A stretch of 64,000 nucleotides of DNA from Solirubrobacterales bacterium (lineage in GTDB: Bacteria > Actinomycetota > Thermoleophilia > Solirubrobacterales > Solirubrobacteraceae), in NCBI GenBank assembly GCA_027315115.1, contig DAHUYQ010000007.1, forward strand, positions 1 through 64,000, read 5' to 3'. The notes under the pieces are model-generated. The model was not told the origin of the DNA and ran no database searches. It was given only the letters and a program-made list of their open reading frames with translations. Position 1 is the first letter of the stretch. Each line of letters begins with the position of its first letter. This document shows, in pieces, positions 2,407 to 49,422 of the stretch. The position numbers and the translations under genes were made by a program.

Positions 2407-3510
2407 CTACAGCTCGATCACGCTTCGGATCCCGTCCTGGTGCTCCATCAGCTCGAAGCCGTGATTCACGTCGTCGAGCCCGATCCGGTGCGAGATGAAC
2501 GCGTCCACGTCGACCTTGCCGTCGAGGTACAGCTGCACGAGCTCGGGCACCTGGTCGCGCCCCTTGACGCCACCGAACGAGGAGCCGCAGATCCGTCGGC
2601 CCGTGATCAGCCAGCGGGGGATCACGTCCAGCGTCTCGCCGCGACCGGCCACGCCGGCGATCGTGCACAGGCCCCAGCCCATCCTCGCCGCCTCGACCGC
2701 CTGGCGCATGACAGCGACGAGCCCGGTCGCCTCGAACGTGTAATCGGCGCCGAACCCGCCCGTCTCCTCGATCACCCGCGCGACGGTGTGATCGTCGGCG
2801 ACCCAGGTCTCGGTCGCGCCCTGGCCGCGCGCGAGTTCCAGCCGCTCGGGCGAGAGGTCCACGCACACGATCCGCTCGGCTCCCTGCAGCCTGCAACCCG
2901 CGACCGCGCCCAGCCCGACCATGCCGGCGCCGAACACAACGCACGTGCTCCCGGGCTTGACCTTGGCGGTGTTGATCGCTGCCCCGAGACCAGTTGACAG
3001 CCCGCACGCGAACAGGCAGGCCCGGTCGGGTGCAGCCTCGCTCGGCACCTTCGCGAGCGCGATCTCCGGCATCACCGTGTACTCCGCGAACGTGCTGCAG
3101 CCCATGAAGTGCCGGATCGGCTCGCCGTCGCGCGACAGCCGGGCGGTGCCATCGGGGAGGTAGCCGAGGTTCTGCTGCTCACGGATCGCCAGGCAGAGGT
3201 TGGTCTCGCTGCTGCGGCAGTGAATGCACTCGCGACACTGTGGCGAGAACAGGGTCACGACCAGGTCACCGGGTGAGACGCTCCTGACGCCCTCGCCGAC
3301 GCGCTCGACGTATCCGGCCCCCTCGTGGCCCAGAACGGTGGGGGCGTATCCGGACGGATCGGCCCCTGAGGCGGTGTACATGTCTGTATGGCAGACGCCG
3401 CACGCGGCCAGGCGGACGAGCACCTCGCCCGCCCGCGGCTCGGCCAGCTCGAGCTCGGTCACGTTCAGTGGCTGGCCGAACTCCTCCAATACTGCGGCGC
3501 GGATCCTCAA
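2407..3510 (-). CDS. Zinc-dependent alcohol dehydrogenase, class III-like
   Basis: A 367-residue medium-chain dehydrogenase that would oxidise an alcohol or thiol adduct with NAD. Catalytic zinc ligands are visible as C37 (ACGVCHTD), H62 (GHEGAG) and a Cys near residue 169. The structural zinc lobe has four Cys (C92, C95, C98, C106). The Rossmann motif GAGMVGLG follows. FMGCSTFAEYTV and the C-terminal SSFGGVKGRDQVP are typical of class III/S-(hydroxymethyl)thiol dehydrogenases, so an alcohol or formaldehyde-thiol substrate is plausible. It lies 33 bp downstream of the TetR regulator and may be co-transcribed with it. Confidence 0.87.
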   Translation of the reverse strand: MRIRAAVLEEFGQPLNVTELELAEPRAGEVLVRLAACGVCHTDMYTASGADPSGYAPTVLGHEGAGYVERVGEGVRSVSPGDLVVTLFSPQCRECIHCRSSETNLCLAIREQQNLGYLPDGTARLSRDGEPIRHFMGCSTFAEYTVMPEIALAKVPSEAAPDRACLFACGLSTGLGAAINTAKVKPGSTCVVFGAGMVGLGAVAGCRLQGAERIVCVDLSPERLELARGQGATETWVADDHTVARVIEETGGFGADYTFEATGLVAVMRQAVEAARMGWGLCTIAGVAGRGETLDVIPRWLITGRRICGSSFGGVKGRDQVPELVQLYLDGKVDVDAFISHRIGLDDVNHGFELMEHQDGIRSVIEL

Positions 3511-3543
3511 AAGACGTTCCTTTCCTCGCTTGGTGTGTGGAAG

Positions 3544-4125
3544 CTATCGGGCGCGCCCGGCATCGAGCCCGTCGATCATCAGCTCCACCATCCGGCGCCA
3601 ATGGCGCGGCTCGGATCGGCGCGCCGCCCGCGCGGCAATCAGCACGAGTCGCAGGTCCAGCGCGGTCGCGTCGCTTCGCAGGCGCCCTTCGTCGCGCGCC
3701 GCGGTGACCAGTCGCTCCAGCGAGCCCATCATCCGCCTGCGCGCGGCCAGCACCTCCGGGTGCTCTGCGAGCGTCACCCTCGCCTCACCCAGGTAGTCGG
3801 TGGCGGACTGCTGCTCGGCCAGCGCGAGGATCATCGCGCGCAGCGCGTGCCAGCGGTCGCCCGGCTGCTCCAGCGCGTCCTGCGCGGCCGCGGCGATCTG
3901 GTCGCGACGCTGCGCGAGCAGCGCGGCCAGCAGTTCCTCCTTGGATCCGAACAGGCGGTAGATGCTCGCCACGCCCGCGCCCGCCGCATCTGCGACCTCG
4001 GCCATCGGCGCCTGCATGCCGTCGCGGGCGAACACCTCGACCGCTGCGATGAGCAGCCGCTTGCGCTTTGCGGCCCGGTCCAGGGCCGCCCAGGCCGGCT
4101 CCGCCACCCCGACCGGAATCTTCAT
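3544..4125 (-). CDS. TetR-family transcriptional regulator
   Basis: A 193-residue repressor. The N-terminal helix-turn-helix reads AAVEVFARDGMQAPMAEVADAAGAGVASIYRLFGSKEELL (split: residues about 26-65), the standard TetR layout ending in YRLFGSKEEL. The C-terminal helical domain would bind an effector. It is transcribed divergently from an MFS exporter with only 19 bp between start codons, so it probably represses that exporter and itself. The alcohol dehydrogenase lies downstream. Confidence 0.88.
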   Translation of the reverse strand: MKIPVGVAEPAWAALDRAAKRKRLLIAAVEVFARDGMQAPMAEVADAAGAGVASIYRLFGSKEELLAALLAQRRDQIAAAAQDALEQPGDRWHALRAMILALAEQQSATDYLGEARVTLAEHPEVLAARRRMMGSLERLVTAARDEGRLRSDATALDLRLVLIAARAARRSEPRHWRRMVELMIDGLDAGRAR

Positions 4126-4144: not shown

Positions 4145-5617
4145 GTGACCGTCGAGCGCGCGCATCCGGAACGGATTCACCCGAATGCGATCCTGGCGGT
4201 GCTTTCGCTCGCGGGCGTCGCCTACGCGATGCTCAGCTCCGCGGTCATTCCCGCGCTGCCGACGATCCAGCACGCCCTGCACGCTTCCGAGACGGGGGTC
4301 ACCTGGCTGCTGACCGGCTATCTGCTGTCGGCCTCGGTCGGGACCTCGATCATCGGACGCCTCGGCGACATGTACGGCAAGGAACGGCTGCTGCTCGTGA
4401 CACTCGCGGTGCTGTCGCTGGGAACGCTGCTCGCCGCGGTCGCGCCATCGCTCGGGCTCGTGATCGCCGCACGGATCATTCAAGGCGTCGGCGGCGGTAT
4501 CTTCCCGCTGGCGTTCGCGATCATCCGCGACGAGTTCCCCGCCCGCCGCGTTCCGGGGTCGATCGGGTTGATGTCGTCGATTCTCGGCGTCGGCAGCGGG
4601 ATCGGGATCGTGCTCGGCGGGCTGATCGTGCAGAGCCTTGACTGGCACTGGCTGTTCTGGCTGCCGTTCGCGACGATGGTGATCGCCGCGGTCGCCACCT
4701 GGCGCTACATCCCGGAGTCTCCGATTCGCGTCCCAGGGCGGGTCAACTGGCCGGCGGCGACGCTGATGACCGTCGGCATGTGCCTGGTGCTGATCGCGAT
4801 CTCAGAGACGACGACCTGGGGCTGGGGCGCCGCCAGGACGCTCGCGATGCTCGGCGCGGGACTGGCGTGCACGCTCGCCTGGATCGTGGTGGAGGTCCGC
4901 AGCCGCGAGCCGCTGATCGACATGGCGATGATGCGGATCCGAGGGGTCTGGACGACGAACCTGGTCGCGTTTCTGCTCGGCGCGGGCATGTACGCATCGT
5001 TCCTGGTGTTGCCGCAGCTTGCGGAGTTGCCGCGCAGCACGGGCTTCGGGCTCGGCGCCTCGGTCGTGGTGGCCGGTCTGTACTTGCTGCCGTCGGCCCT
5101 TGGCATGGGGCTGCTCGGGGCGGTCGCCGGCCGGGTTGCGCGGCGCTACGGCTCGAAGCTGGCGCTGATCGTCGGCAGCGCGCTCACCGGCCTGGCATTC
5201 GCCTGGCTCGCCGTCGCGCACTCGCATCCCTACGACATGCTGATCAGCTCGGCCCTGCTGGGGGTGGGGATCGGATTCGCATTCTCGGCGCTGGGCAACC
5301 TGATCGTGCAGGCCGTCGAGCCCGGGCAGACGGGCGTCGCGAGCGGGATGAACACGGTCATGCGGACGCTCGGCGGCGCGCTCGGCGGCCAGATCGTGGC
5401 GACGTTTCTGGCCGACAACATCGTCCACGGGTATCCCGCGCAGTCGGCCTTCGTGAACGGATTCGTCCTTCAGGCGGCCTTCCTCGGCGTCGCCGTCGTC
5501 GCGGCGCTGCTCGTGCCGACACTGCGGGCCGCCCACCGGGCGGCGGCCGAGCCGCTCAGAAGCGATGAGCTCGGGCTGGACTCGGACGTCGCCATCGAAC
5601 CTCTGGGAGCCGGCTAG
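4145..5617 (+). CDS. MFS drug exporter, DHA2 family
   Basis: A 490-residue 14-helix transporter. [14 protein letters not shown] forms the loop 2-3 motif and ARIIQGVGGGIFPLAFAII the helix-4 motif C region characteristic of drug:H+ antiporters. It starts with GTG directly downstream of a -10 box and is probably translated from a leaderless message. It is divergent from TetR, the usual arrangement for an inducible efflux pump, and is followed after 32 bp by another MFS gene, so the two probably form an operon. Confidence 0.87.
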   Translation: MTVERAHPERIHPNAILAVLSLAGVAYAMLSSAVIPALPTIQHALHASETGVTWLLTGYLLSASVGTSIIGRLGDMYGKERLLLVTLAVLSLGTLLAAVAPSLGLVIAARIIQGVGGGIFPLAFAIIRDEFPARRVPGSIGLMSSILGVGSGIGIVLGGLIVQSLDWHWLFWLPFATMVIAAVATWRYIPESPIRVPGRVNWPAATLMTVGMCLVLIAISETTTWGWGAARTLAMLGAGLACTLAWIVVEVRSREPLIDMAMMRIRGVWTTNLVAFLLGAGMYASFLVLPQLAELPRSTGFGLGASVVVAGLYLLPSALGMGLLGAVAGRVARRYGSKLALIVGSALTGLAFAWLAVAHSHPYDMLISSALLGVGIGFAFSALGNLIVQAVEPGQTGVASGMNTVMRTLGGALGGQIVATFLADNIVHGYPAQSAFVNGFVLQAAFLGVAVVAALLVPTLRAAHRAAAEPLRSDELGLDSDVAIEPLGAG

Positions 5618-5649
5618 CTCTGTCGGGCACGCGTGACAACCACGGGGCG

Positions 5650-7404
5650 ATGAACCCCCCGAAGCAAACGGCCGCTGATCACCGGGGGGAGCGCTACAAG
5701 TGGATCGCGCTCTCCAACTGCACCCTCGGTGTCCTGCTGGCGACGCTCGACGCGTCGATCACGCTGATCGCGATGCCCGACATCTTCCGGGGCATCCACC
5801 TCGACCCGCTGGTGCCGTCCAACAGCTTCTACCTGCTGTGGATGATCCTCGGCTTCCTGGTCGTCTCCAGCGTGCTGATCGTGTCGCTGGGCCGGCTCGG
5901 GGACATGTACGGCCGGGTGCGGATCTACAACCTCGGGTTCGTGATCTACACGGCCGCCTCGCTGCTCTTGACCGTCGACTGGCTGTCGGGACGCGCGGGC
6001 GCGATGTACCTGATCGTGCTGCGCGTCGTTCAGGGGATCGGGGCAGCGTGCCTGCTGGCCAACTCCGCCGCGATCATCACGGACGCGTTCCCCGCCGACC
6101 AGCGGGGAATGGCGCTGGGGATCAACAACATCGTCGGCGTCAGCGGGATGTTCGTCGGACTCGTGCTGGGGGGCATCCTGGCCCCGGTCAGCTGGCGGCT
6201 GGTGTTCCTGATCTCGGTCCCGGTCGGCCTGTTCGGGACCGTGTGGGCGTATCTCAAGCTGCAGGAGGTCTCGACGCCCCGGCGCGCGCGAATCGACTGG
6301 GCCGGCAACCTGACGTTCGCGGTCGGCCTGATCCTGATCATGATCGCCGTCACCTACGGGATCCGGCCCTACGGCCGCTCGGCCACGGGGTGGGGGAGTC
6401 CGATGGCGCTCGGCCTGATCGCTGGCGGCGTCGCATCGCTGATCGCCTTCGCGCTGATCGAGCATCGCGTGCAGGACCCGATGTTCCGCCTGTCGCTGTT
6501 CCGGATTCGCGCGTTCACGTTCGGGACGCTGTCGACCTTCCTGTCGGCGGTTGCGCGCGGGGGGCTGATGTTCATGCTGATCATCTGGTTGCAGGGCATC
6601 TGGCTGCCGCAGCACGGGTTCGACTTCGCCGACACGCCGCTGTGGGCCGGGATCTACATGCTGCCGCTGACGATCGGGATGCTCGTGGCCGGGCCGACCT
6701 CGGGCTATCTGTCAGACCGTTTCGGCGCGCGCCCGTTCGCGACCGGCGGCATGGTCGTCGCGTGCGGCGCCTTCATCGGGCTGGAGCTGCTGCCCGTCGA
6801 CTTCTCCTACCCGGTGTTCGCGGGGCTGCTGTTCCTCAACGGGGCCGGGATGGGCCTGTTCGCCTCGCCGAACAGGACAGCGATCATGAACAGCCTGCCC
6901 GCGCGCCAGCGCGGCTCCGGCGCGGGCATGAGCACGACCTTCCAGAACTCCGCGATGGTGCTCTCGATCGGCATCTTCTTCTCGCTGATGATCATCGGCC
7001 TGGCCTCCGGTCTGCCCGGCGCGTTGCAGAGCGGCCTCACCGCCCATGGCGTGGGCGCCGCCACCGCCGCGAGGCTCTCGCACCTGCCGCCCGTGGCCAC
7101 GCTGTTCGCCGCCTTCCTCGGCTACAACCCGATCAGGTCGCTGCTCGGCGCCAAGGTGCTGAGCACCCTCCCGCACTCTCAGCAGGCGGCGCTCACGGGC
7201 CGCGGCTTCTTCCCGCACCTGATCACCGGCCCCTTCTCCTCCGCCCTGACCACGGCGTTCAGCTTCGCGGCGGCCGCCTGCCTGGTGGCCGCGGTCGCCT
7301 CGCTGCTGCGCGGCGGCAAGTACCACCACGTCGAGTCGGAGGCCGCCCCCGCCAAATCAGAGCCGGCGGCAGCGGAGCCCGAGTTGGCGGCCGTCCCGGA
7401 TTAG
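5650..7404 (+). CDS. MFS transporter, DHA2 family, long form
   Basis: A 584-residue transporter, longer than its neighbours because of an extended loop before the last helices (about residues 455-530) and a hydrophilic Ala/Glu/Pro tail. [17 protein letters not shown] is the loop 2-3 motif and [19 protein letters not shown] the helix-4 motif. Its stop codon overlaps the stop of the convergent sigma-factor gene. It likely forms an operon with the preceding exporter under the TetR regulator. Confidence 0.85.
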
Positions 7405-9122: not shown

Positions 9123-10586
9123 ATGACGGGCGCGCAGATCACATCAAAGACGGCACAGGTCTCGACCGCAAGACCCGGCGGCCGCGGCAGGCTGGACTGG
9201 GTTCTCGGCCTCACCTCGACGGCCTACTTCATGGTGGCGCTCGACGCGCTGGTGGTCGTCACCGCGCTGCCGCGGATGCAGCGGGACCTGCACGTCGGCC
9301 TCTCCTCCCTGCAATGGACGGTCAACTCCTACGGGATCGCGTTTGCCGCCGGCATCATCACGGCGGCGGCGCTGGGCGACCGCTTCGGACGCCGCCGCGT
9401 CTTCACCGCCGGCCTGGCGCTCTTCGCGGTGGCCTCGGCGGCGTGCGCGCTGGCGCCGAACGCGGGCGAGCTGATCGCCGCGCGCACGGTGCAGGGCCTC
9501 GGCGGCGCGATCGTGCTGCCGCTCAGCCTGACGATCCTCACGACGGCGTTTCCCGCCGAGCGTCGCGGGCTGCTCGTGGGCGTCTACGGCGGGCTCGCCG
9601 GCTTGGCCGTGGCGATCGGCCCGCTCGTGGGCGGCGCGGTCACGCAGGGCATCGACTGGCACTGGATCTTCTGGATCAACGTCCCGATCGGCCTGGTGGC
9701 CGCCGCGCTCGGCACGCGGCTGCTCCCCGAGAGCCGCGGCCCGGCCAAGCGCCTCGACATCTGCGGCGCGACGCTGGTGACGGTGGGGGTGCTCACGGTC
9801 GTGTGGGGGCTCGTGCGCGCGGGAGACGCCGGCTGGTCGAGCGGGGAGGTCGTCGGCACGCTCGCGGGAGGCGCGCTGCTGCTGGTCGCGTTCGTCGTAT
9901 GGGAGGGGCGCGCCCGCGAGCCGATGGTGCCTCTGCGGCTGTTCGCCAGCCGCGACTTCACGCTCGGCAACCTGACCACGTTCCTGATGTCCGGCGCGAC
10001 CTTCGCCGCCGCGTTCCTGCTCGCGCAGGACTTCCAGTTCGCGCGCGGCTACTCGCCGCTTTCGACCGGCCTGCGCCTGCTGCCGTTCTTCGCCACGCCG
10101 ATGTTCGTCGCTCCGATCGCCGGCGCCGTCTCCGACCGGGTCGGCCGCCGACCGCTGATCGTCGCCGGGCTCGCGCTGCAGACCGCCGGCTTCGCGTGGG
10201 TGGCGGCCCGTGGCTCGCTGGCCACGAGCTGGATCGAGATCGCCCTCGCGCTGCTGGTCGCCGGCGTCGGTATCTCGATGGCGCTGCCGACGGTGCCGAC
10301 GGCCGTCCTCGGCGCCGTCAGCGAAGCGGAGATGGGCACGGCCTCGGGCATCAACTACATGGCCCAGCGCTTCGGCGCCGTCTTCGCGATCGCGATCGCG
10401 ACTGCCGTCTTCTCCGCCTACGGGCACCTCGGCTCGCCGGGCGCCGTCACCGCCGGCTTCAGGCCCGCGCTGTGGGCATGTGCCGCGCTCGCGCTCGCGG
10501 CGACGATGAGCGGGCTGGGCATCGCCTCGCGCCCGCCCCGGATGGAGAGCGCGCCCGCCGCGACCGAGGATCTGATCGCCGCCTGA
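9123..10586 (+). CDS. MFS drug exporter, DHA2 family
   Basis: A 487-residue 14-helix transporter. LGDRFGRRRVFTAGLALF is the loop 2-3 motif and ARTVQGLGGAIVLPLSLTIL the helix-4 motif; ALDALVVVTALPRMQRDL matches the conserved helix 1 of the EmrB/QacA group. The ATG at 9123 follows GGAGG with good spacing; the longer upstream frame is not needed. It is divergent from the DGPF/sigma pair and is followed after 62 bp by an SRPBCC gene, perhaps in one transcript. Confidence 0.87.
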   Translation: MTGAQITSKTAQVSTARPGGRGRLDWVLGLTSTAYFMVALDALVVVTALPRMQRDLHVGLSSLQWTVNSYGIAFAAGIITAAALGDRFGRRRVFTAGLALFAVASAACALAPNAGELIAARTVQGLGGAIVLPLSLTILTTAFPAERRGLLVGVYGGLAGLAVAIGPLVGGAVTQGIDWHWIFWINVPIGLVAAALGTRLLPESRGPAKRLDICGATLVTVGVLTVVWGLVRAGDAGWSSGEVVGTLAGGALLLVAFVVWEGRAREPMVPLRLFASRDFTLGNLTTFLMSGATFAAAFLLAQDFQFARGYSPLSTGLRLLPFFATPMFVAPIAGAVSDRVGRRPLIVAGLALQTAGFAWVAARGSLATSWIEIALALLVAGVGISMALPTVPTAVLGAVSEAEMGTASGINYMAQRFGAVFAIAIATAVFSAYGHLGSPGAVTAGFRPALWACAALALAATMSGLGIASRPPRMESAPAATEDLIAA

Positions 10587-10648
10587 GCGCCCTACACGAC
10601 TTCACCCACCACGACAACCGTCAACACAAACAAGAGAGGAACGAGAAC

Positions 10649-11098
10649 ATGGCAGAGATCCTTCACCGCATCTCGATCGCGGCACCGCCCAGCGAGGTCC
10701 ACGACCTGATCGCCACCAAGCAGGGGATAGAGAGATGGTGGACCGGCCGCGCCGTCGACGGCGAGGCTACCGTCGGCGGCCAGATGGCGTTCCGCTTCAG
10801 GGCAGGCGGCACGCCGGCCGCCGTCGTGGAGGTGCTCGGCGACACGCCTGAGCAGATCGCCTGGCGCTGCGTCGAAGGCCCCGAGGACTGGCGCGATACG
10901 CGCATCACGTTCTCACTGAAGCCATCCGCCGACGGCGGCACGACGCTGCTGTTCGAGCACGCGGGATGGCGAGAGCCCAACGAGTTCATGGGCGGCTGCA
11001 CGACCAACTGGGGCGCCTACCTGACGAGCCTCAAGTCCGGCGCCGAGGGCCACGGCTTCGGCCCCTATCCGGCAGGCGAGATCAGCCGCTGGGGCTGA
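10649..11098 (+). CDS. SRPBCC (AHSA1-like) protein
   Basis: A 149-residue single-domain protein. The opening ILHRISIAAPPSEVHDLIAT, the motif GIERWWTGRAV and the C-terminal TNWGAYLTSLKS are characteristic of the AHSA1/START-like branch, which forms a hydrophobic ligand pocket. The ligand is unknown. GAGAGGA precedes the ATG. Genes of this kind are often linked to DGPF/sigma or efflux genes in actinobacteria, as here. Confidence 0.8.
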   Translation: MAEILHRISIAAPPSEVHDLIATKQGIERWWTGRAVDGEATVGGQMAFRFRAGGTPAAVVEVLGDTPEQIAWRCVEGPEDWRDTRITFSLKPSADGGTTLLFEHAGWREPNEFMGGCTTNWGAYLTSLKSGAEGHGFGPYPAGEISRWG

Positions 11099-11173
11099 TT
11101 CAGCAGACAGAGCACGCTGGGCGAGCGTCGGCGGGTCCTTGGCGAGCGCGGCGACCAGCACCGCGCCTGGCGG

Positions 11174-12052
<879 letters not shown>

Positions 12053-12149
12053 CGATGAATCTTACGGGCGACGGCGCTCGTCGAGCTCGCGCCGCGGAAG
12101 CGTGACGCATGCGGCCGAGGCCGCCCTGCCGTGAGGTAGCCTTCGCCCG

Positions 12150-12971
12150 GTGACCGCCACGAGCCGAGTCGCGTTGGTGACGGGAGCGTCCTCCGGGATC
12201 GGTCTGGCGACCGCGCGGCGGCTCGCGCGCGAACCGGGCACCGAACTGATCCTGGTGGCGCGTCGCGAGGAGCGCCTGCGCGAGCTTGCGGAGTCGCTGC
12301 CGTGTCCAGCCGGCTGGGTCGCGGTCGATCTCACCGCCGAGGACGCGCCGGCACGGGTGCGCGCCGCGGTGCAGGAGCGCGGCGACCGCCTGCATCTGCT
12401 GGTCAACAACGCCGGCGCCGCCTGGCGCGGCAGCTTCGCCGAGACCGGCTACGCCAATCTGCGCCGCCACATGGAGATCAACTTCGACGCTGTCGCGCGT
12501 CTCACGGAGGCGCTGCTGCCGACGCTGCGGCGCAGCGCCCCGAGCGCGATCGTGAACGTCGCGAGCACCGCGGGGCGCGTCTCGCGGGCCCGGTCGGGCG
12601 CCTACTCGGCCAGCAAGTTCGCCCTGATCGGCTGGAGCGACGCGCTGCACCTCGAGGAGGCGCCGCACGGCGTGCACGTGGGCGTCGTGCTGCCCGGCTT
12701 CGTCCCGACCGAGGGCTTCCCGGCGACCGAGCTGCGCGAGAAGGCGCTCACCCGCATGATGCTCTCCAGCCCCGAGCGTGTCGCCGAGGCGATCTGCCAG
12801 GCCGGGCCGGGCGGCCGAGCCGAACGCTACGTGCCGCGCGCCTACGCGCTCGCGGGCCTCTCACGGATGCTGCTGCCGGGAGTCGTGCGACGGGTGCTCG
12901 GCAGCGGCGCGGCCGGCTCGCTCACCACGAGCACCGCGGCTGAAGCGGCAGACAGCGACGACGGGCGCTGA
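12150..12971 (+). CDS. Short-chain dehydrogenase/reductase
   Basis: A 273-residue classical SDR. The cofactor motif TGASSGIG is at residues 11-18, NNAG near 92, and the catalytic Tyr152/Lys156 pair in YSASK. An Arg in VARREER after the second strand suggests NADPH preference. The C-terminal part (RAYALAGLSRMLLPGVVRRVLG) may touch the membrane, as in reductases of hydrophobic substrates. GTG start, with TAGCCT 7 nt upstream indicating a leaderless transcript. The substrate is unknown. Confidence 0.85.
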   Translation: MTATSRVALVTGASSGIGLATARRLAREPGTELILVARREERLRELAESLPCPAGWVAVDLTAEDAPARVRAAVQERGDRLHLLVNNAGAAWRGSFAETGYANLRRHMEINFDAVARLTEALLPTLRRSAPSAIVNVASTAGRVSRARSGAYSASKFALIGWSDALHLEEAPHGVHVGVVLPGFVPTEGFPATELREKALTRMMLSSPERVAEAICQAGPGGRAERYVPRAYALAGLSRMLLPGVVRRVLGSGAAGSLTTSTAAEAADSDDGR

Positions 12972-18033: not shown

Positions 18034-20322
18034 ATGGCCGAACGGGAGAGAGCCGGCGTAGACGAGGACATCGGTCTGTCGATCGATCGGCCGGAGGACG
18101 TCGCCGCCGGGCCGGCCGCCGTGGCGTGGGCGATGCGTCACGCGCTTGGAGCGATGGGGCCGGTGCGAACGGCACGGACGCTTTCGCGGGTGAACCAGGT
18201 GTCGGGGTTCGACTGCCCGGGCTGCGCGTGGCCGGACCCCGAGCATCGCCATCACGCCGAGTTCTGCGAGAACGGCGCGAAGGCGGTCGCGGAGGAGGCG
18301 ACTCGCGAGCAGGTGGACAGGGCGTTCTTCGAGCGGCACTCGGTCACAAGCCTGTGCGAGCAGACCGACTACTGGCTTGGCCGGCAGGGCAGGCTGACCG
18401 AGCCGATGCTCCTGGACGCTGACGCGACCCATTACACGCCGATCGCCTGGGACGACGCCTTCGGCTTGATCGCGGAGGAGCTGCTTGCGCTCCAGTCGCC
18501 CGACGAAGCGGCCTTCTACACCTCGGGTCGCACCAGCAACGAGGCCGCGTTCGCCTACCAGCTCCTGGCCAGGGCGTTCGGCACGAACAATCTCCCTGAC
18601 TGCTCGAACATGTGCCATGAGTCCTCAGGCGTCGCACTCACGGAGACGATCGGGATCGGCAAGGGCAGCGTCTCGCTGCAGGACTTCGACGAAGCGGAGC
18701 TGATCGTGATCGTGGGACAGAACCCGGGCACGAACCATCCGCGGATGCTCAGCGCGCTGGAACAGGCCAAGCGGCGCGGGGCGCGGATCGTCGCCGTCAA
18801 CCCGCTGCCCGAGGCAGGGCTGATGCGGTTCCGCAACCCGCAGCGCCCAAGCGGGATGCTCGGACGTGGCACGCCGCTGGCCGACTCCTTCCTGCAGATC
18901 AGGCTCGGGGGCGACCTCGCGCTGTTCAAGGCGATCAACCGCCGCCTGTTCGAGCTCGACTCGCAACGTGGAGGCGTCATCGACCACCAGTTCCTGGCCG
19001 AACGCTGCGAAGGCGCGGAGCAGCTCCGCGACGAGCTTGCGGACCTGCGGTGGGCTCAGGTGCTGGAGGCCACAGGGCTGCCCCGCGAGCAGATCGAGCA
19101 CCTTGCGGATCAGATCGCGGGCAGCGAGCGGATCATCGTCTGCTGGGCGATGGGACTGACGCAGCACCGGGACTCGGTGGCGAGCATCAGGGAGATCGTC
19201 AACACGCTGCTGCTGCGCGGCGCGATCGGCAAGCCCGGCGCCGGCGCCTGCCCGGTGCGCGGCCACTCCAACGTCCAGGGCGACCGCACGATGGGCATCT
19301 TCGAGAAGCCCACGGACGAGTTCCTGGACGGGCTCGGGCTGGCGTTCGGCTTCGCCCCGCCCAGACACCACGGCCACGACGTCGTGGACAGCATCCAGGC
19401 GATGGCCAGAGGCGAGGTCAAGGCTTTCTTGGCGATGGGCGGCAACTTCCTTTCGGCCAGCCCGGACACCGCGGCGACCGCGGCCGCGCTGCGGCGCCTG
19501 CGCCTCACGGTCCACGTCTCCACGAAGCTGAACCGCTCGCACCTGATCACCGGCCTGCGCGCGCTGATCCTCCCGACCCTTGGACGCACCGAGATCGACA
19601 TGCAGGCAAGCGGCGCCCAGCAGGTGACCGTCGAGGACTCGATGAGCGTCGTTCACGCCTCCCAAGGCCGGCTGAAGCCCGCTTCGCGGATGCTGCTCTC
19701 GGAGGTCTCGATCGTGTGCCGCCTGGCCCGCGCGTTGCTCGGCGAGCGCCACCAGATCCCCTGGCAGGCGTTCGAGAACGACTACGCGACGATCCGTGAG
19801 CGAATCGCGGAGGTGATCCCCGGCTTCGAGGACTTCAACGTCCGCATCGCCGCCCCCGGCGGCTTCGTCCTGCCCCACCCGCCGCGCGACGAGCGTAGCT
19901 TCCCGACCGCCACCGGCAAGGCGCGCCTGAGCGTCAACCCACTGCAGGTCCTGCGCGTGCCGCAGGGGCGTCTGCTGCTGCAGACGATGCGCTCGCACGA
20001 CCAGTACAACACCACGATCTACGGCCTCAACGACCGCTACCGCGGCATCAAAGCCGGCCGGCGCGTGATCCTCGTGCATCCGAACGACCTTCGAGAGCTC
20101 GGCCTCGCCGACGGCGACATCGTCGACATCACCAGCGAGTGGGAGGACGGCGATCGCATGGTGCAGCGCTTCCGGGCGACCTCATATCCCACCGCAAGAG
20201 GGTGCGCCGCCGCCTACTACCCCGAGACCAACCCCCTCGTCCCGCTCGGGGCACGCGCGGAGGGATCGGGGACCCCCGCCTCGAAGTCGATCGTCGTCCG
20301 GCTCGAGCCTGCGCGGGCGTAG
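18034..20322 (+). CDS. FdhF/YdeP-family molybdopterin oxidoreductase
   Basis: About 762 residues. The N-terminal FDCPGCAWPDPEHR and CENGAKAVAEEAT are hallmarks of the YdeP/FdhF-like branch of molybdopterin oxidoreductases. Mo-bis-MGD binding segments follow: FYTSGRTSNEAAF, CSNMCHESSG, VIVGQNPGTNHPR and the C-terminal MRSHDQYNTTIYGLNDRYRG (read in part). In E. coli YdeP contributes to acid resistance; the physiological substrate of the family is unsettled. The start could be GTG 18016 or ATG 18028 or 18034. Convergent with the histidine kinase, with a 7-bp gap. Confidence 0.87.
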   Translation: MAERERAGVDEDIGLSIDRPEDVAAGPAAVAWAMRHALGAMGPVRTARTLSRVNQVSGFDCPGCAWPDPEHRHHAEFCENGAKAVAEEATREQVDRAFFERHSVTSLCEQTDYWLGRQGRLTEPMLLDADATHYTPIAWDDAFGLIAEELLALQSPDEAAFYTSGRTSNEAAFAYQLLARAFGTNNLPDCSNMCHESSGVALTETIGIGKGSVSLQDFDEAELIVIVGQNPGTNHPRMLSALEQAKRRGARIVAVNPLPEAGLMRFRNPQRPSGMLGRGTPLADSFLQIRLGGDLALFKAINRRLFELDSQRGGVIDHQFLAERCEGAEQLRDELADLRWAQVLEATGLPREQIEHLADQIAGSERIIVCWAMGLTQHRDSVASIREIVNTLLLRGAIGKPGAGACPVRGHSNVQGDRTMGIFEKPTDEFLDGLGLAFGFAPPRHHGHDVVDSIQAMARGEVKAFLAMGGNFLSASPDTAATAAALRRLRLTVHVSTKLNRSHLITGLRALILPTLGRTEIDMQASGAQQVTVEDSMSVVHASQGRLKPASRMLLSEVSIVCRLARALLGERHQIPWQAFENDYATIRERIAEVIPGFEDFNVRIAAPGGFVLPHPPRDERSFPTATGKARLSVNPLQVLRVPQGRLLLQTMRSHDQYNTTIYGLNDRYRGIKAGRRVILVHPNDLRELGLADGDIVDITSEWEDGDRMVQRFRATSYPTARGCAAAYYPETNPLVPLGARAEGSGTPASKSIVVRLEPARA

Positions 20323-43599: not shown

Positions 43600-44634
43600 C
43601 TAGCTGACGCGCCCGGCGCCACCGGCCGCATACAGAAACCGTGGGCCCGCGGTTCCGTCACGCCCCGGGACCTCCATGGGCATCAGCCGCGCCGCGGTGA
43701 TGCGCAGCGCGTGCATCTGTGCCATCGCCGGCCCGAGCGCGGCGGGCTCGCCGCCGAACGTGCGCTGAAGCTCGTCGATCAGCAGCGTGAACGTGCCGTC
43801 GAGCTGATCGGAGACCCGCGCGACTTCCGAGTCCGGCGGCAGGGGGATCTCGGGCGGGTTTTCGATCATCGGCCAGACGCCGGCATCGTCGAGTCCGATC
43901 GTCGGTGGTCCCCACTCGTAGCCCTCCGGCGCCGCCGGATCGCGGTTGAGGGTCTCGTGGCGCTGGATCTGCTCGAAGCGGTAGTAGTGGGCCAGCTCGT
44001 CGTCCGGGTCCTCCGGGCTCTGTGCTGTGCCCTCCCCCTGCTCCACGATCAGCTCGATCGCCTTCAGCGCGCCTTCGAGGTTCAGCACCGCATGTAGCTG
44101 GCTCTGGTCGATCCAGCCCGTCACCTGCCGCGACACGTCGCCGGTGAAGACGCCCTCGCCGAGCTCTCTCATCAGGTTCCCGACCGCTTCGTAGAACTCT
44201 CCGATGGTGTGGTATCCGGCCTGTCCGCGAATGCGGTCTTCCGGGAAGTCCAGCGGGTGCTCGGGCTCCTCGATCGTCATGAACGTCTTGATGCTGGCCT
44301 GCGAGAGCCGCGCCAGCGGCACGATGAATTCAGGGCCGCCGGGCTCGTCGCCGATTTCCATCGGCAGCGGGGCCGGATAGCGCAGCACCGCCGCCGCCAG
44401 ATTCGGCGTGCCGCCGACGGCATTGAGCATGTTGCAGGCCAGCGAGAGGTGCAGCATCTCCTCGATCACGACGCTGCGGACGATCGCGCCGGCGGCGGCG
44501 TTGGCCCCAGGCTTGATGGAGAACAGCGCTGTCAGATACGGCGGGATCGTCCCCATCTCCAGCGCGATCGCGTTGCCGAGCGCGGTGCGCAGATCTTCGA
44601 CCGTCTCAAGCGGCTGTCGTGGCAGGAACAGCAT
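43600..44634 (-). CDS. VioB-type ferritin-like protein
   Basis: A 344-residue protein. The ferritin-like domain (residues 10-190) has IALEMGTIPPYLTALFSI with Glu26, VVIEEMLHLSLACNMLNAVG with E58/E59 and His62, and later LAHYYRFEQIQRHETL as the second Glu/His helix. This EEMLH pattern is that of the ferritin-like domain in VioB (iminophenylpyruvate dimer synthase). VioB itself is much larger; here only the ferritin part is present. It is the last gene of a four-gene operon. It may oxidise a small molecule or a metal. Confidence 0.8.
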   Translation of the reverse strand: MLFLPRQPLETVEDLRTALGNAIALEMGTIPPYLTALFSIKPGANAAAGAIVRSVVIEEMLHLSLACNMLNAVGGTPNLAAAVLRYPAPLPMEIGDEPGGPEFIVPLARLSQASIKTFMTIEEPEHPLDFPEDRIRGQAGYHTIGEFYEAVGNLMRELGEGVFTGDVSRQVTGWIDQSQLHAVLNLEGALKAIELIVEQGEGTAQSPEDPDDELAHYYRFEQIQRHETLNRDPAAPEGYEWGPPTIGLDDAGVWPMIENPPEIPLPPDSEVARVSDQLDGTFTLLIDELQRTFGGEPAALGPAMAQMHALRITAARLMPMEVPGRDGTAGPRFLYAAGGAGRVS

Positions 44635-44670
44635 CTGGCGGCTCTCCTTCCGCCGGGCCCGCGCGCCCGG

Positions 44671-44907
44671 CTACGGGGGACACTGGTGCTCCATCCAGGA
44701 CTTGAACGTCGCGATGTCCGCGCCGCTGAGGGCGGGCAGCGGCGGCGGCGGCATCGGCCCGGCCGACCCTTCCCCGGTCAGGGCTTCATAGATGATCTGC
44801 GCGTTGGCCTTGACCGCCGCGTATTCGCCAAGGTCGAATCGCCAGAGCATGTTTTCGCGGTACGGCACCAGCATCGGCGCGATGTCGGCGGCGAACGACG
44901 GGCTCAT
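44671..44907 (-). CDS. Short cytochrome-domain-like protein without heme motif
   Basis: A 78-residue protein reading SFAADIAPMLVPYRENMLWR, FDLGEYAAVKANAQIIYEAL and a C-terminal FKSWMEHQCPP. The layout (FxxDIxPML, DLxxYxxVKxxA, MPPPPL) resembles a degenerate c-type cytochrome domain, but there is no CxxCH, so no heme c can be attached. The ATG overlaps the preceding stop (ATGA) and the ferritin-like gene follows after 36 bp. It may be a partner subunit of that protein. Confidence 0.6.
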   Translation of the reverse strand: MSPSFAADIAPMLVPYRENMLWRFDLGEYAAVKANAQIIYEALTGEGSAGPMPPPPLPALSGADIATFKSWMEHQCPP

Positions 44908-46583
44908 GGCTTCCCGGGCAGCGAGTAGACGTTGAGCATCCCGCCGCTGCGGCCCGCCACGAGCGCCCCGGCCACCACGTATTCGCCGGCGAGCGCCGGC
45001 CCCATGCAGTAGCCGTAGCCGCCGCTCATGCCGCCGGTCTGCGGACCGAAGCTCTCGGTGTCGGCCCACAGCAGCTTTCCGTCCGTCGCCGAGAAGGCGT
45101 AGAGCGCGACCCGCGTGGTCGCCATGAAGACGACGTCGTTGGCGACCGCGGGGACGCTGAGGCCGCTCTCGCCGCCCATCTTGTAGAGCGGGTTGTCCTC
45201 CTGCGCCGCGATCGCGTAGCGCTGCGGGTCGCCATCGTCGAGCGGCCAGGCATCCTGGAGCGAGGCCCAATCCAGCGCCCGGATGAACGGGGTGGTTGGC
45301 GCGTCGATGCCAGGGCTAAGGTAGTGGTAGTTGTTGCCGCCGAGCCCGATGAACAGCTTGCCCTGAGCGCCGCAGACCGCGGCCGTGCTGTAGGTGCCCA
45401 TGTAGTTCTCGCCCTGGACCTGGTTGGACTTCTCGTTGGGGATCACGGGCGCGGGCGCGGTCGGTTCGTCGGGCCCGTGGGGGTCGACGGTCGCGACCTG
45501 CGTGCCGTCACGGTGCAGCGGCAGAAGCTGGCGCACTCCGACGATCTCGAAGGTGCGGGCGTCGAAGACGACGTAGGCGCCGTTCTTGCAGCCGATTCCC
45601 AAGAGCTTGCGGCCGTCGAGCTCGTAGAGCGTCGGCGAGCCGCCGATGTCGACGTCGATGTCCGACGGGCGATAGCTCGAGGAGGCGGGAATCTGCACGC
45701 TGGCCACGAACTGGCCCGTCGAGCCCTTCAGGACGAGGACGCTGTTGGTGTATCCCGGCGTCGGCAGCGGGCCGTCGGGCTGGGGGTTGCCCGTGGCGCA
45801 GTAGAGCTGGTCCAGCTCGGGATCGAAGGCGATCGACGACCAGACCGAGGCGCCCTTCACCTTCACAGTTCCGGTGAACGTCGTGAACCCCTTCGGCGGC
45901 GGCGAGACGACAGTGTTCGACGGCAGCTCGTTCGGGAGGTTGTGGCGGCCGGCTTCGTACTGACATGTGCAGAAGATCCAGCTCACGTCGCCCGTCGCGG
46001 CGTCGAGGCAGTAGACGAATCCGTAGAGCGAGGGGTTCTCCCCCTCTCCCATGCCCACGTACACGCGACCGTCGCAGAGCACCGGCGAGGACCACCCGGC
46101 GGCCTTCGGCGCGTCGCCCGAGTCGTTGGTGACCGGCTGGTTGTGCGCAAGGTCGGCGTGGCGCAGATCGGTCACCCACCGCAGCGACAGATCCTCTTCG
46201 GAGAGGCAGTAGAGCTTGCCGTTGAACGCGCTGAACACGACGCAGCCGTCGGCTACCGCGGGCGTGCACCCCATGCCGCAGAACCCGTGCGAGTCGCGTT
46301 CGTCGATCGGGATCTCCCACGTGTAGCGGGCCACGATCTCCCCGCTTGCGAGGTCGATCTTCAGCATCTGCCCCCCGATCTGCGTGGCGACCTCGAGCGC
46401 GTTCGCCAGTCCCACGTAGGCGTATGCGCCCACCACCGCGGGCGTGGAGAGGACCGAGCCGGGCACCTCGATCGAGTGCAGCAAAGCAAGCGCCGGGACG
46501 GTCTCGGCGGTGATGCGGGTGTCGGTCACCTCGCCGCTGTGGGCGAGGTCGCCATGGAACATCCACCAGCCGGCAGACATCAT
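44904..46583 (-). CDS. PQQ-type beta-propeller protein
   Basis: A 559-residue propeller. It opens WWMFHGDLAHSGEV, like the start of quinoprotein dehydrogenases, and repeats GxxYCLxxxxGxxxW blades (KLYCLSEEDLSLRWVTDLRH, VYCLDAATGDVSWIFCTC). No signal peptide is visible from the ATG at 46583, which overlaps the upstream stop (ATGA). Several Cys occur in pairs (CGMGC, CTC). Whether it binds PQQ is unknown; it may be a structural propeller. It is gene 2 of the operon. Confidence 0.75.
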   Translation of the reverse strand: MMSAGWWMFHGDLAHSGEVTDTRITAETVPALALLHSIEVPGSVLSTPAVVGAYAYVGLANALEVATQIGGQMLKIDLASGEIVARYTWEIPIDERDSHGFCGMGCTPAVADGCVVFSAFNGKLYCLSEEDLSLRWVTDLRHADLAHNQPVTNDSGDAPKAAGWSSPVLCDGRVYVGMGEGENPSLYGFVYCLDAATGDVSWIFCTCQYEAGRHNLPNELPSNTVVSPPPKGFTTFTGTVKVKGASVWSSIAFDPELDQLYCATGNPQPDGPLPTPGYTNSVLVLKGSTGQFVASVQIPASSSYRPSDIDVDIGGSPTLYELDGRKLLGIGCKNGAYVVFDARTFEIVGVRQLLPLHRDGTQVATVDPHGPDEPTAPAPVIPNEKSNQVQGENYMGTYSTAAVCGAQGKLFIGLGGNNYHYLSPGIDAPTTPFIRALDWASLQDAWPLDDGDPQRYAIAAQEDNPLYKMGGESGLSVPAVANDVVFMATTRVALYAFSATDGKLLWADTESFGPQTGGMSGGYGYCMGPALAGEYVVAGALVAGRSGGMLNVYSLPGKP

Positions 46584-47056
46584 CTCGCGAGAGGCAGGTA
46601 GGTGGCAGCGAGCAGTCCGGCGGCGACCCATGCGACGCGCGCACGGCTTCCCAGGCCGCGCGCCAGGCGCGCGCCGACGGCGAGGCCGAGCAGCGCCAGC
46701 ACGGCGCTCGCGACACCGGCCGGCGCCGGGGCGGCCGGCGAAAGCAGGTTGTCGAGCGAGAGCGCGACGGCGACGGTGGCCACGACCGCCCAGGCCGACC
46801 AGCGGCGGCTCGATGCAGCGAACGCGCTCGCCGCCACGACCACTGTGAGCGCGTATGCGCAATAGAGGACGGCCATGCCGGCCAGCACCGCCAAGTGTGT
46901 CCCGGAAAGCGTCGCGTACAGCGAGGCGAGCCCGTCAGCCAAGCCGAAGAGCACGGACGCCGCGACCCGTTCCGGCGCACGCGGCAGCAGCGACGCGAGC
47001 GCGAGACCGGCCACGAGGCTATCCAGGCTCAGCCAACCGGCGTGGAAGAAGGGCAT
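46580..47056 (-). CDS. MntP/LysE-superfamily-like membrane protein
   Basis: A 158-residue, roughly six-helix protein made of two similar halves. LSLDSLVAGLALASL near the start and VALSLDNLLSP in the middle match the pattern of MntP manganese exporters (SMDAFAAS and TSLDAMAVG), where the Asp residues bind the metal. It is a little shorter than MntP (about 190). As first gene of the operon and divergent from a CDF transporter, it probably moves a divalent metal, but this is inference. Confidence 0.55.
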   Translation of the reverse strand: MPFFHAGWLSLDSLVAGLALASLLPRAPERVAASVLFGLADGLASLYATLSGTHLAVLAGMAVLYCAYALTVVVAASAFAASSRRWSAWAVVATVAVALSLDNLLSPAAPAPAGVASAVLALLGLAVGARLARGLGSRARVAWVAAGLLAATYLPLAR

Positions 47057-47362: not shown

Positions 47363-48034
47363 ATGCCCGAGATAGCAGCGCCTCATCACCATCACGACCA
47401 TGACCAAGAGCATGGGCACGGGCATTCGCATGGCCTGATCGACCCGAGCATCAAGCGCTCGCGTGATGGGATCAGAGCGGTCTCGCTGTCGCTGGCGGTG
47501 CTCGGTCTCGCCGCGCTCGCCCAGACAGCGGTCTTCGTTCTCAGCGGCAGCATCGCGCTGCTGGCCGACCTGATCCACAACTTCGGCGACGCGCTCACCG
47601 CGATCCCGCTGGGGATCGCCTTCGCGCTGCGCTCGCAGCTTGCCGAGCGGCGCGCCGGACTGGCCGTCGTCGCCGCGATCTTCATCAGCGCCTGCGTCGC
47701 CGGAGTCGAGGCCGTGCGGCGACTCGTCCATCCAAGCGCGCCCACGCACCTGCTGGTGCTCGCGCTCGCGGGCGCGATCGGGTTCGCCGGCAACTTCCTC
47801 GCCGCACAGGTCCGCACGCGGGCCGGACGCCGTCTGGCAAGCGCGGCTTTGATCGCCGACGGCGACCACGCACGCGCGGACGCCTACGTCAGCCTCGCCG
47901 TGATCGCCTCGGCGCTGGTCGTCGCCGCCGGCGTGCCCATCGCGGACCCGATCATCGGCCTTGTGATCTGCGTGGTGATCCTGCGCATCACCTGGCAGTC
48001 CTGGCTGACCATCCGCGGTCACCACACGCACTGA
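47363..48034 (+). CDS. Cation diffusion facilitator, short form
   Basis: A 223-residue transporter of divalent metal (Zn, Co, Fe or Mn). The N-terminus is a His-rich tract (HHHHDHDQEHGHGHSHG). Metal-site motifs are HNFGD in helix 2 and HARAD in helix 5. The usual cytoplasmic C-terminal domain is missing: the protein ends directly after helix 6 with RGHHTH. C-terminal-less CDFs are known but rare. Leaderless-type promoter. It is divergent from the MntP-like/PQQ operon. Confidence 0.83.
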   Translation: MPEIAAPHHHHDHDQEHGHGHSHGLIDPSIKRSRDGIRAVSLSLAVLGLAALAQTAVFVLSGSIALLADLIHNFGDALTAIPLGIAFALRSQLAERRAGLAVVAAIFISACVAGVEAVRRLVHPSAPTHLLVLALAGAIGFAGNFLAAQVRTRAGRRLASAALIADGDHARADAYVSLAVIASALVVAAGVPIADPIIGLVICVVILRITWQSWLTIRGHHTH

Positions 48035-48255
48035 GCCGAGGGGGCCATGCCGCGGCTCCCGGGCGCCGCAGATGCCAGGCGCCGTAGACCGTAGAGACCC
48101 CGCAGCGCCGCTGCGGCGAGACGCGGACGATCATGCGGTCGCCGCCGCCTATCGTCCACTGGGATGTCCGATCCGATCACGCGCCGCAGCCTGATAGGCA
48201 AGGGGCTGATAGCGGAACGGGCAGCCACAGGCACCCGGCGCAATCCTCGGTGCTG

Positions 48256-49422
48256 ATGCCATCCCGGCCGGGCACCTGGCGTCAGCGTACGCTCAGGCGG
48301 GGCCGGGCAGTGGCGCTCGCCGCGCTGACAGCGGCGGCAGCGATGATCGTGCTGCTGGTGGCCAGCGGCGGCCAGGGCAAGCATCGCGGACTCAGGAGCG
48401 CACGCGCGAAGCACGGCGCGCATGCCGTCGTCCCACGACAAGGCGGCGGCCCCGCGATCAGCGCCAACCTGAGGCCCGGGTCGAGCCCGAACGTGCTGCC
48501 GGGGCCCATCTTGATCGCCGACCGCGACAACAACCGCCTGCTCGAGATCAGCCCCCAGGGGCGTGTGCTCTGGCGCTTTCCCCGCCCAGGCGATCTGGCC
48601 CCGGGGCAGAGCTTCCTCTCGCCCGACGATGCATTCTTCTCACCCGGTGGAGGCAAGATCGTCGCCACGCAAGAGGACGATTTCGCGATCAGCGTCATCA
48701 GCCTCGCCAAGAGCCGCATCATCTACCGCTACGGCCATCCCGGTCAACCGGGCTCGGCGCCGGGCTACGTGTACAACCCCGACGACGCGATGCTCCTGCC
48801 GTCCGGGAAGCTGCTCGCGGCGGACATCATGAACTGCCGCCTGCTAGTGATCCGGCCACCGGCGCATCATCCGCTCCACCAACTGGGCGTGACCGGCGAC
48901 TGCGAACACCGACCCGGCCTCAGCTATGGCAGCCCGAACGGGGCCTTTCCGATGGCAAACGGCGACACCGCGGTCACCGAGATCAACGGAGACTGGCTGG
49001 ACGTCCTCTCGCCCGACGGCCGCGCTGTTGCCGTGACGCATCCGCCGGGCTTCACCTACCCGTCAGACACCAACGAGCTACGGCCAGGGATCTTCCTCTC
49101 AGCCGACTACACCGACCCGGGCGCGCTCGAGGCGTTCACGGCCGGCGGCCGACTGCTGTGGCGCTACGAACCCAAAGGCAGACGGGCGCTCGACCGGCCC
49201 TCACTCGCGTTGCCGCTGCCAAACGGAGACGTCCTCGCCAACGACGACGGGAACGACCGCGTGATCGTCGTCGACCCGCACACCGACAAGATCGTCTGGC
49301 AGTACGGGCATACACACGTGCCCGGCTCCGGCGAAGGCTTCCTGAGCAATCCAGACGGGGTTGACCTCGCTCCCCCGGACTCGCTCACACAGCGCTTCGC
49401 CGCCGGCATGCGCGCGCCGTGA
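48256..49422 (+). CDS. Membrane-anchored beta-propeller (NHL/arylsulfotransferase-like)
   Basis: A 388-residue exported protein. The N-terminal anchor (AVALAALTAAAAMIVLLVAS) follows a basic start; the rest forms propeller blades with repeats of DRDNNRLLEISPQGRVLWRF and NDRVIVVDPHTDKIVWQYGH type. Similar proteins with HH and DxDN motifs are often labelled arylsulfotransferase-like or NHL proteins in actinobacteria. The ATG at 48256 suits the signal anchor; the frame is open from 48133. Confidence 0.7.
   Translation: MPSRPGTWRQRTLRRGRAVALAALTAAAAMIVLLVASGGQGKHRGLRSARAKHGAHAVVPRQGGGPAISANLRPGSSPNVLPGPILIADRDNNRLLEISPQGRVLWRFPRPGDLAPGQSFLSPDDAFFSPGGGKIVATQEDDFAISVISLAKSRIIYRYGHPGQPGSAPGYVYNPDDAMLLPSGKLLAADIMNCRLLVIRPPAHHPLHQLGVTGDCEHRPGLSYGSPNGAFPMANGDTAVTEINGDWLDVLSPDGRAVAVTHPPGFTYPSDTNELRPGIFLSADYTDPGALEAFTAGGRLLWRYEPKGRRALDRPSLALPLPNGDVLANDDGNDRVIVVDPHTDKIVWQYGHTHVPGSGEGFLSNPDGVDLAPPDSLTQRFAAGMRAP

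Follow-up and report, generated by a model that had tools for sequence, protein, structure and literature searches.

In the 64,000-nucleotide stretch of Solirubrobacterales DNA analysed here (the window; GenBank assembly GCA_027315115.1, hereafter G000), a four-gene operon joins a VioB-type ferritin-like protein to a free helical protein of 78 amino acids (aa), a quinoprotein-like beta-propeller and an MntP-like membrane protein. The interpretation we favour, held with middling confidence, is that this operon specifies a VioB-like oxidative enzyme of the cytoplasm that is divided among several proteins: the degenerate quinoprotein propeller and the VioB-type helper domain are read as separate subunits of a di-metal oxidase. 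The same cassette recurs in the genomes of unrelated bacteria, where it takes the place of the VioB-N-type gene usually found beside this type of ferritin gene. The PF12902 family, to which the ferritin-like protein belongs, is already known; the propeller cassette is described in no title or abstract of the open literature searched.

The four genes, all on the minus strand, span 43600-47056 (coordinates are positions within the window, unless a locus is named), with junctions consisting of a 4-base-pair (bp) overlap, a second 4-bp overlap and a 36-bp gap, exactly where an earlier note made from the sequence alone had placed the operon. A ribosome-site-like sequence, GGAAGGAGAG, is found upstream of the start of the ferritin-like gene. 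The four genes are:

43600..44634, minus strand: ferritin-like protein, 344 aa (PF12902, E 3.6e-60)
44671..44907, minus strand: stand-alone helical, heme-less cytochrome-like domain, 78 aa (homologs in loci L019, L034 and L091)
44904..46583, minus strand: quinoprotein-like beta-propeller, 559 aa (PF01011, E 9.1e-14)
46580..47056, minus strand: divergent MntP-like membrane protein, short at 158 aa (PF02659, E 0.06, below the family cut-off)

The first and third of these assignments uphold the VioB-type ferritin-like protein and the propeller of pyrroloquinoline quinone (PQQ) type that the earlier note had named. The ferritin-like protein is a clear member of PF12902 (204 bits for a curated cut-off of 22.3), with PDB entry 3hl1 as its single convincing solved relative (E 6.6e-15), and stands well apart from the VioB equivalog model TIGR04492 (13.6 bits vs. 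a cut-off of 1250). Six of its residues, E26, E59-x2-H62, E122, E201 and H216, are identical in 90 of the 90 aligned family members. Four glutamates and two histidines being the usual composition of a two-metal ferritin-like site, this invariant set would suit such a site. The gene is present as a single copy in G000, a genome of 3.33 Mb in 65 contigs (90.65% complete), in which the window lies on contig 59.

The PF12902 loci compared were gathered with a nine-sequence alignment and one peptide pattern, the best 80 of 429 relatives being kept, a choice favouring close relatives. Full-length propeller homologs (674-687 bits, 55-56% identical to the window propeller) were found in three of these 80 loci, namely L019 and L034, from Bryobacterales metagenome-assembled genomes (Acidobacteriota), and L091, from Undibacterium sp. 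TS12 (Pseudomonadota). All three also hold a homolog of the 78-aa protein (E 9e-17 to 7e-14; 42-45% identity), and the presence of both families beside PF12902 in three other genomes is more than chance. Concerning gene order, L034 has ferritin, propeller, MntP-like protein, NHL propeller and 78-aa protein, while L091 has the same succession with the NHL propeller fused to the 78-aa domain; L019 has ferritin, propeller and 78-aa domain, its MntP-like gene lying about 9 kb upstream. A further locus, L104, on a 4.9-kb contig of genome G691, carries in succession a longer propeller, an MntP-like gene and an NHL propeller, the contig stopping before any ferritin gene is visible, and L088 has a short propeller-like fragment (91 bits) beside a normal VioB-N gene. 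The earlier note had staked its proposal on a gene order conserved in relatives and on a true relative of MntP/LysE; the four families do recur in L034 and L091, as does the propeller-MntP-NHL triad in L104, so that neither condition turned clearly against the proposal; the genes form a recurring system, with an order that is only partly kept.

At the genome level, the propeller is rare and scattered. The counts that follow are lower bounds, the first few candidates per genome having been scored, and each includes the genome on which the search was centred: one of 396 genomes in the window's phylum, which is the window's own (E 1e-20); two of 396 in the phylum of L019 with a four-sequence profile (E 1e-80), i.e. 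G679, the genome of L019, and the divergent G691; and one of 300 in the order of Undibacterium, namely the source genome. The co-occurrence expected by the earlier note within the window's own group failed to appear: among 60 relatives (23 of the same genus), the 78-aa protein gave three weak and short matches (E 9e-4 to 6e-3), which, judging from the ORFs (open reading frames) concerned, we read as chance, and of 298 further genomes in the class two contained the ferritin-like gene. The genome of L019 has another, divergent homolog of the propeller (L105, around 10141-12524), which can be read in two overlapping frames only and is possibly broken. An MntP-like gene lies some 2 kb away from it, and what looks by eye like a gene for a TonB receptor separates the two.

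Two trees were built, a careful one from 44 ferritins picked by hand out of 90 and a quick one from all 90 rows. In the careful tree, L019, L034 and L091 form one group (support 100/99), the window ferritin pairs with that of Pyxidicoccus (L018; 99/91), and a single clade of cassette ferritins is rejected (approximately unbiased test, p-AU 7.9e-5; log-likelihood difference of 46). The quick tree also splits the cassette ferritins, the window row being long-branched. Since they do not form one clade, two separate assemblies of the cassette are suggested, and two ferritin lineages joined to the same partners would, if right, be strong evidence for a functional link.

What the cassette replaces was apparent from the remaining loci. 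In 76 of the 80 loci, the ferritin-like domain is immediately preceded by a small middle domain, no more than 1.5 kb from the start of the ferritin ORF; it lies in a separate ORF in 69 of them and in the same ORF in seven. An eight-sequence model gave the initial set of these domains, and the count of 76 comes from a model rebuilt on those finds. The four loci devoid of it are the cassette loci L019, L034 and L091, plus L079. The VioB-N gene with its middle domain therefore alternates with the propeller cassette beside the same ferritin type. The upstream VioB-N-like proteins begin with MSYLN..RL.FSG.FQADVSTVNND, and three of the four partners tested match the VioB model, at positions 455-594 for L008 (E 2e-5), 515-586 for L011 (E 0.016, weak) and 513-583 for L014 (E 2.4e-7), the partner in L010 giving no match. 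In L019, the ferritin gene is immediately preceded by an ORF of 80 codons, a remnant of a VioB-N gene: its final 52 residues match the starts of VioB-N proteins (E 9.7e-21 to L037; 84 ORFs at E 1e-3, with itself counted). The split VioB-like pairs that were looked up are annotated as hypothetical and ferritin-like proteins. On the Aureibacter plasmid (L014, 9302-15643), the VioB-N/PF12902 pair directly precedes an ebo-type set annotated as EboA, TatD, EboC, 3-dehydroquinate synthase and EboE. Also, L083 and L055 each hold two VioB-N-like genes with a middle domain.

By profile comparison, the 78-aa protein is a stand-alone version of the small helical domain found ahead of the ferritin-like domain in VioB-type proteins. 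Neither Pfam nor NCBIfam has a family that it matches at E 1. Its family and the middle domain align in hhalign at 96.6-97.2% (97.2% over 69 columns), while 30 shuffled-column controls gave at most 4.4. In the reverse direction, a 12-sequence profile from which middle-domain members were excluded matches exactly the C-terminal segment in eight VioB-N-like loci (whole-protein E 4.5e-5 to 5.5e-3). The structure model of the 78-aa protein has four helices (predicted local distance difference test of 81), at 5-17, 29-34, 36-44 and 62-73, vs. 503-516, 530-535, 537-545 and 562-572 in the VioB-N model, so that the predicted helix spacings agree. The fold was also compared with residues 291-423 of LodA (lysine epsilon-oxidase), and, in a comparison with the class I cytochrome c fold, Foldseek listed the cytochromes 1cch and 3dp5 with E values as high as 5.8 and 8.4. 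As for the label "heme-less cytochrome-like", neither the 78-aa protein nor, by eye, its three cassette homologs contain the CxxCH heme-attachment motif of cytochromes c; the kinship finds indirect support in the family profile, which also reaches four proteins with CxxCH in the matched region (domain E 8e-6 to 5e-5).

The same small domain was met in other settings. Three free copies lie within 3.3 kb in L123 (7365-7616, 8071-8367 and 10331-10582), from genome G758 of the same phylum as L019, with a metallophosphoesterase gene nearby. On a plasmid of Mesorhizobium sp. AR10 (L016), two proteins bear the domain (3085-3633 and 5575-6225) in an operon annotated with a multicopper oxidase, a tyrosinase, a cytochrome P460 and a YCF48-related protein.

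The best solved matches of the propeller are quinohemoprotein alcohol dehydrogenases (8gy2, 1yiq, 1kb0 and 1kv9; E 1e-17). It scores 65.4 bits with TIGR03075, the PQQ-dependent alcohol dehydrogenase model (cut-off 480.05), and 53.1 bits with TIGR04528, the empty-quinoprotein subfamily, again below the cut-off. Ten residues of 1kb0, with the PQQ, calcium and catalytic roles that we take them to have, were mapped onto it: E182, W248, N266 and K333 of the window propeller align with E185, W245, N263 and K335, while E70, C116, C117, R122, T167 and D308 are not kept, the catalytic Asp position and the vicinal cysteines being among the losses. Seven cysteines, including C205-x-C207, are invariant in the four propellers (window, L019, L034 and L091). 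No signal peptide is visible by eye, and known PQQ dehydrogenases are periplasmic. A PqqC homolog was found in G679 and in the positive control, and not in G000, G680 and G681; at 90.65% completeness, its absence from G000 is not certain. A classical PQQ dehydrogenase role is unlikely, and a cofactor or metal site in the propeller is possible.

The membrane protein resembles a divergent MntP relative. It aligns with MntP-like proteins in hhalign (81%, E 1.2e-5), and its D12, D102 and N103, situated in two Asp-containing repeat motifs, are invariant with the proteins of L034 and L091, which themselves pass the PF02659 cut-off (33.6 and 63 bits, respectively). In the window and also in L034, L091 and L104, an MntP-like gene is the neighbour of that for the propeller. 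On a plasmid of Streptomyces sp. NBC_01483 (L015, 12663-13253), an MntP-like gene scoring 96 bits with the cassette MntP profile is convergent to the last gene of an apparent pqqB-pqqC-pqqD-pqqE set (by eye), with a PQQ-type dehydrogenase upstream, an arrangement in which a link between MntP-like proteins and quinoproteins is possible.

Among the closest known systems are VioB, RebD and StaD, which are synthases of the iminophenyl-pyruvate dimer and of chromopyrrolic acid (TIGR04492 being the VioB model). The core of violacein, a purple pigment, is made by VioB, and VioB-type enzymes carry out key oxidative coupling in the violacein and indolocarbazole pathways. The comparison, made with VioB only, shows a shared PF12902-type ferritin-like domain and, ahead of it, a small helical domain, which in the split pairs matches positions 513-594 of the VioB model; VioB is however a single chain of about 1000 aa, vs. 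three genes here, and its N-terminal part is here replaced by a quinoprotein-like propeller. The split VioB-like pairs of Azospirillum (L008), Gloeothece (L011) and Aureibacter (L014) likewise have the ferritin gene directly after a gene ending in the middle domain, but neither propeller nor free 78-aa protein was found in their loci. Quinohemoprotein alcohol dehydrogenases share the PQQ-type propeller and four of the ten functional positions, and differ in the vicinal cysteines and catalytic Asp position, lost in a window propeller that appears intracellular from its sequence. AsqI (5yy2/5yy3), a hemocyanin-like zinc cyclopenase, matches almost the whole of the 78-aa profile with its C-terminal residues 659-745 (E 0.013; E 0.057 for the domain); the match is borderline and not listed with the A8 profile, and the catalytic domain is another one. 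MntP manganese exporters (PF02659) have the two Asp-containing repeats, the window protein being shorter (158 aa) and below the family cut-off. A 2021 review states that VioB contains heme b, shows catalase activity, has catalytic properties that are largely unknown and lacks a structure (PMC9705886); StaD is called a novel hemoprotein in a title cited by PMC10784701, and PMC4417212 reports PF12902 genes beside fungal lodA-like genes.

The sequences show the make-up of the operon, its recurrence and its alternation with VioB-N genes, and from these a complex, its catalysis, its metal and its location are inferred. Under the favoured interpretation of a VioB-like enzyme in pieces, the two-metal centre of the ferritin-like subunit would activate O2 or H2O2 so as to couple or oxidise a small-molecule substrate. 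The 78-aa protein would dock on this subunit as an obligate helper, as it presumably does within the VioB chain; it and the propeller occupy the place of the VioB N-terminal part. The propeller may then fill the VioB-N role (scaffold, substrate or cofactor pocket) in the absence of a common fold, and the MntP-like protein may ensure that the metal of the enzyme (Mn or Fe) is at hand or in balance. With such a natural split, the catalytic subunit (the ferritin-like protein), its large partner and the small helper domain could each be made and tested individually, the free 78-aa protein making the role of the middle domain directly testable. That the small domain is linked with tyrosinase-type as well as AsqI-like enzymes suggests that several families of oxidases share it as a helper. 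A bolder and rather doubtful extension is that the operon represents a new class of cytoplasmic oxidase, built in trans from a ferritin-like di-metal enzyme, a quinoprotein propeller of which half is retained, and a helper domain that derives from a cytochrome and is heme-less; this helper would be a general partner of VioB-type, hemocyanin/tyrosinase-type and perhaps LodA-type oxidases, and may hold the non-covalent heme b of VioB, RebD and StaD. The conserved Met residues of the small domain, with Met20 and Met52 in the 78-aa protein, are, as a guess, candidate heme ligands.

Several results weigh against the VioB-like interpretation. The full-length cassettes found here are four in total, and that of L019 has no internal MntP gene. 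The rows behind the two ferritin lineages were chosen by hand (44 of 90), and the starred branches of the quick 90-row tree do not force two origins. An HMMER profile of 83 middle domains does not match the 78-aa protein at E 10, so that the homology is carried by the profile-profile alignment and the modest reverse-direction matches. VioB-N is not modelled as a propeller (its model gives immunoglobulin-type matches at 360-495, the remainder being barely tested), which makes the "same role" of the window propeller an analogy. The membrane protein reaches 13.6 bits with PF02659 for a cut-off of 24.4, and the 15.0 bits that it scores in HMMER come with a bias term of 14.7, so that this score is mostly composition bias and weak alone. 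Finally, an inspection by eye of the ORFs in the list for 41-50 kb revealed no VioA-like oxidase.

Four other explanations were considered. The metal supply and oxidation put forward in the earlier note, with the ferritin-like protein oxidising or storing a metal moved by the MntP-like protein and a neighbouring CDF transporter, agrees with the MntP-like gene adjoining the propeller gene in the window and three other loci, and with the invariant metal-ligand-type residues of the ferritin-like family. Yet PF12902 groups with VioB-type enzymes and not with iron stores, none of the other loci scanned holds a counterpart of the CDF gene, and the propeller and 78-aa domain have no evident metal-storage role; the nearest architecture being that of VioB, a small-molecule oxidative enzyme, this plain version finds no support and is considered unlikely. 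An active quinoprotein module, in which a propeller dehydrogenase (with PQQ, or another cofactor and a metal) would feed substrate, electrons or H2O2 to the ferritin-like enzyme, is quite unlikely: even though four 1kb0 residues are kept, the best solved matches are quinohemoprotein alcohol dehydrogenases, a PqqC homolog occurs in the genome of L019 and the Streptomyces pqqB-E-like set adjoins an MntP-like gene, the propeller has lost the vicinal cysteines, E70, R122, T167 and the D308 position, lacks a visible signal peptide for what should be a periplasmic enzyme, and is not accompanied by a detected PqqC in G000, G680 and G681.

The propeller, 78-aa and MntP-like proteins might also act in assembly, loading the ferritin-like enzyme with metal while staying outside the active complex, a maturation system being one of the alternatives raised in the earlier note. 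A membrane metal protein and a small helper adjoining an enzyme would be expected of it, and the small domain accompanies tyrosinase and multicopper oxidase genes in L016 and weakly matches the C-terminus of AsqI; the domain is however a permanent part of the enzyme chain in the seven fused VioB-type ORFs, and in AsqI if that match holds, and such a role is given little credence. That the genes are chance neighbours devoid of joint function would accord with the few cassettes and their variable gene order, but is highly improbable for rare families that sit side by side in four genomes from two or more phyla, with propellers 55-56% identical and two ferritin lineages.

Concerning the surroundings of the operon, the GC content of the four genes (0.675-0.736) is near that of the window (0.698), and a recent foreign origin is therefore not marked by composition. 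Two neighbouring features are:

47363-48034: divergent CDF-family gene, 223 aa, matching positions 3-189 of the 285 of the CDF model
48133-49422, plus strand: ORF with NHL/PQQ-like propeller repeats (by eye), 429 aa, from the ORF list

From the model positions covered, the C-terminal domain of the CDF protein is missing, as had been noticed earlier, but the place given to this transporter in the system was not borne out: at E 1e-5, no homolog other than the window's own was found in the 97 loci and the window scanned. As for the NHL propellers of L034 and L091, the sole match of their profile in G000 (E 1e-3) is on contig 7, and the ORF at 48133-49422 is thus not a close relative of theirs. 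The contig 7 homolog (550 bits; 18220-19434 of that contig, L107 9203-10483), located on another contig than the operon, adjoins a gene resembling, by eye, a flavin adenine dinucleotide (FAD) monooxygenase.

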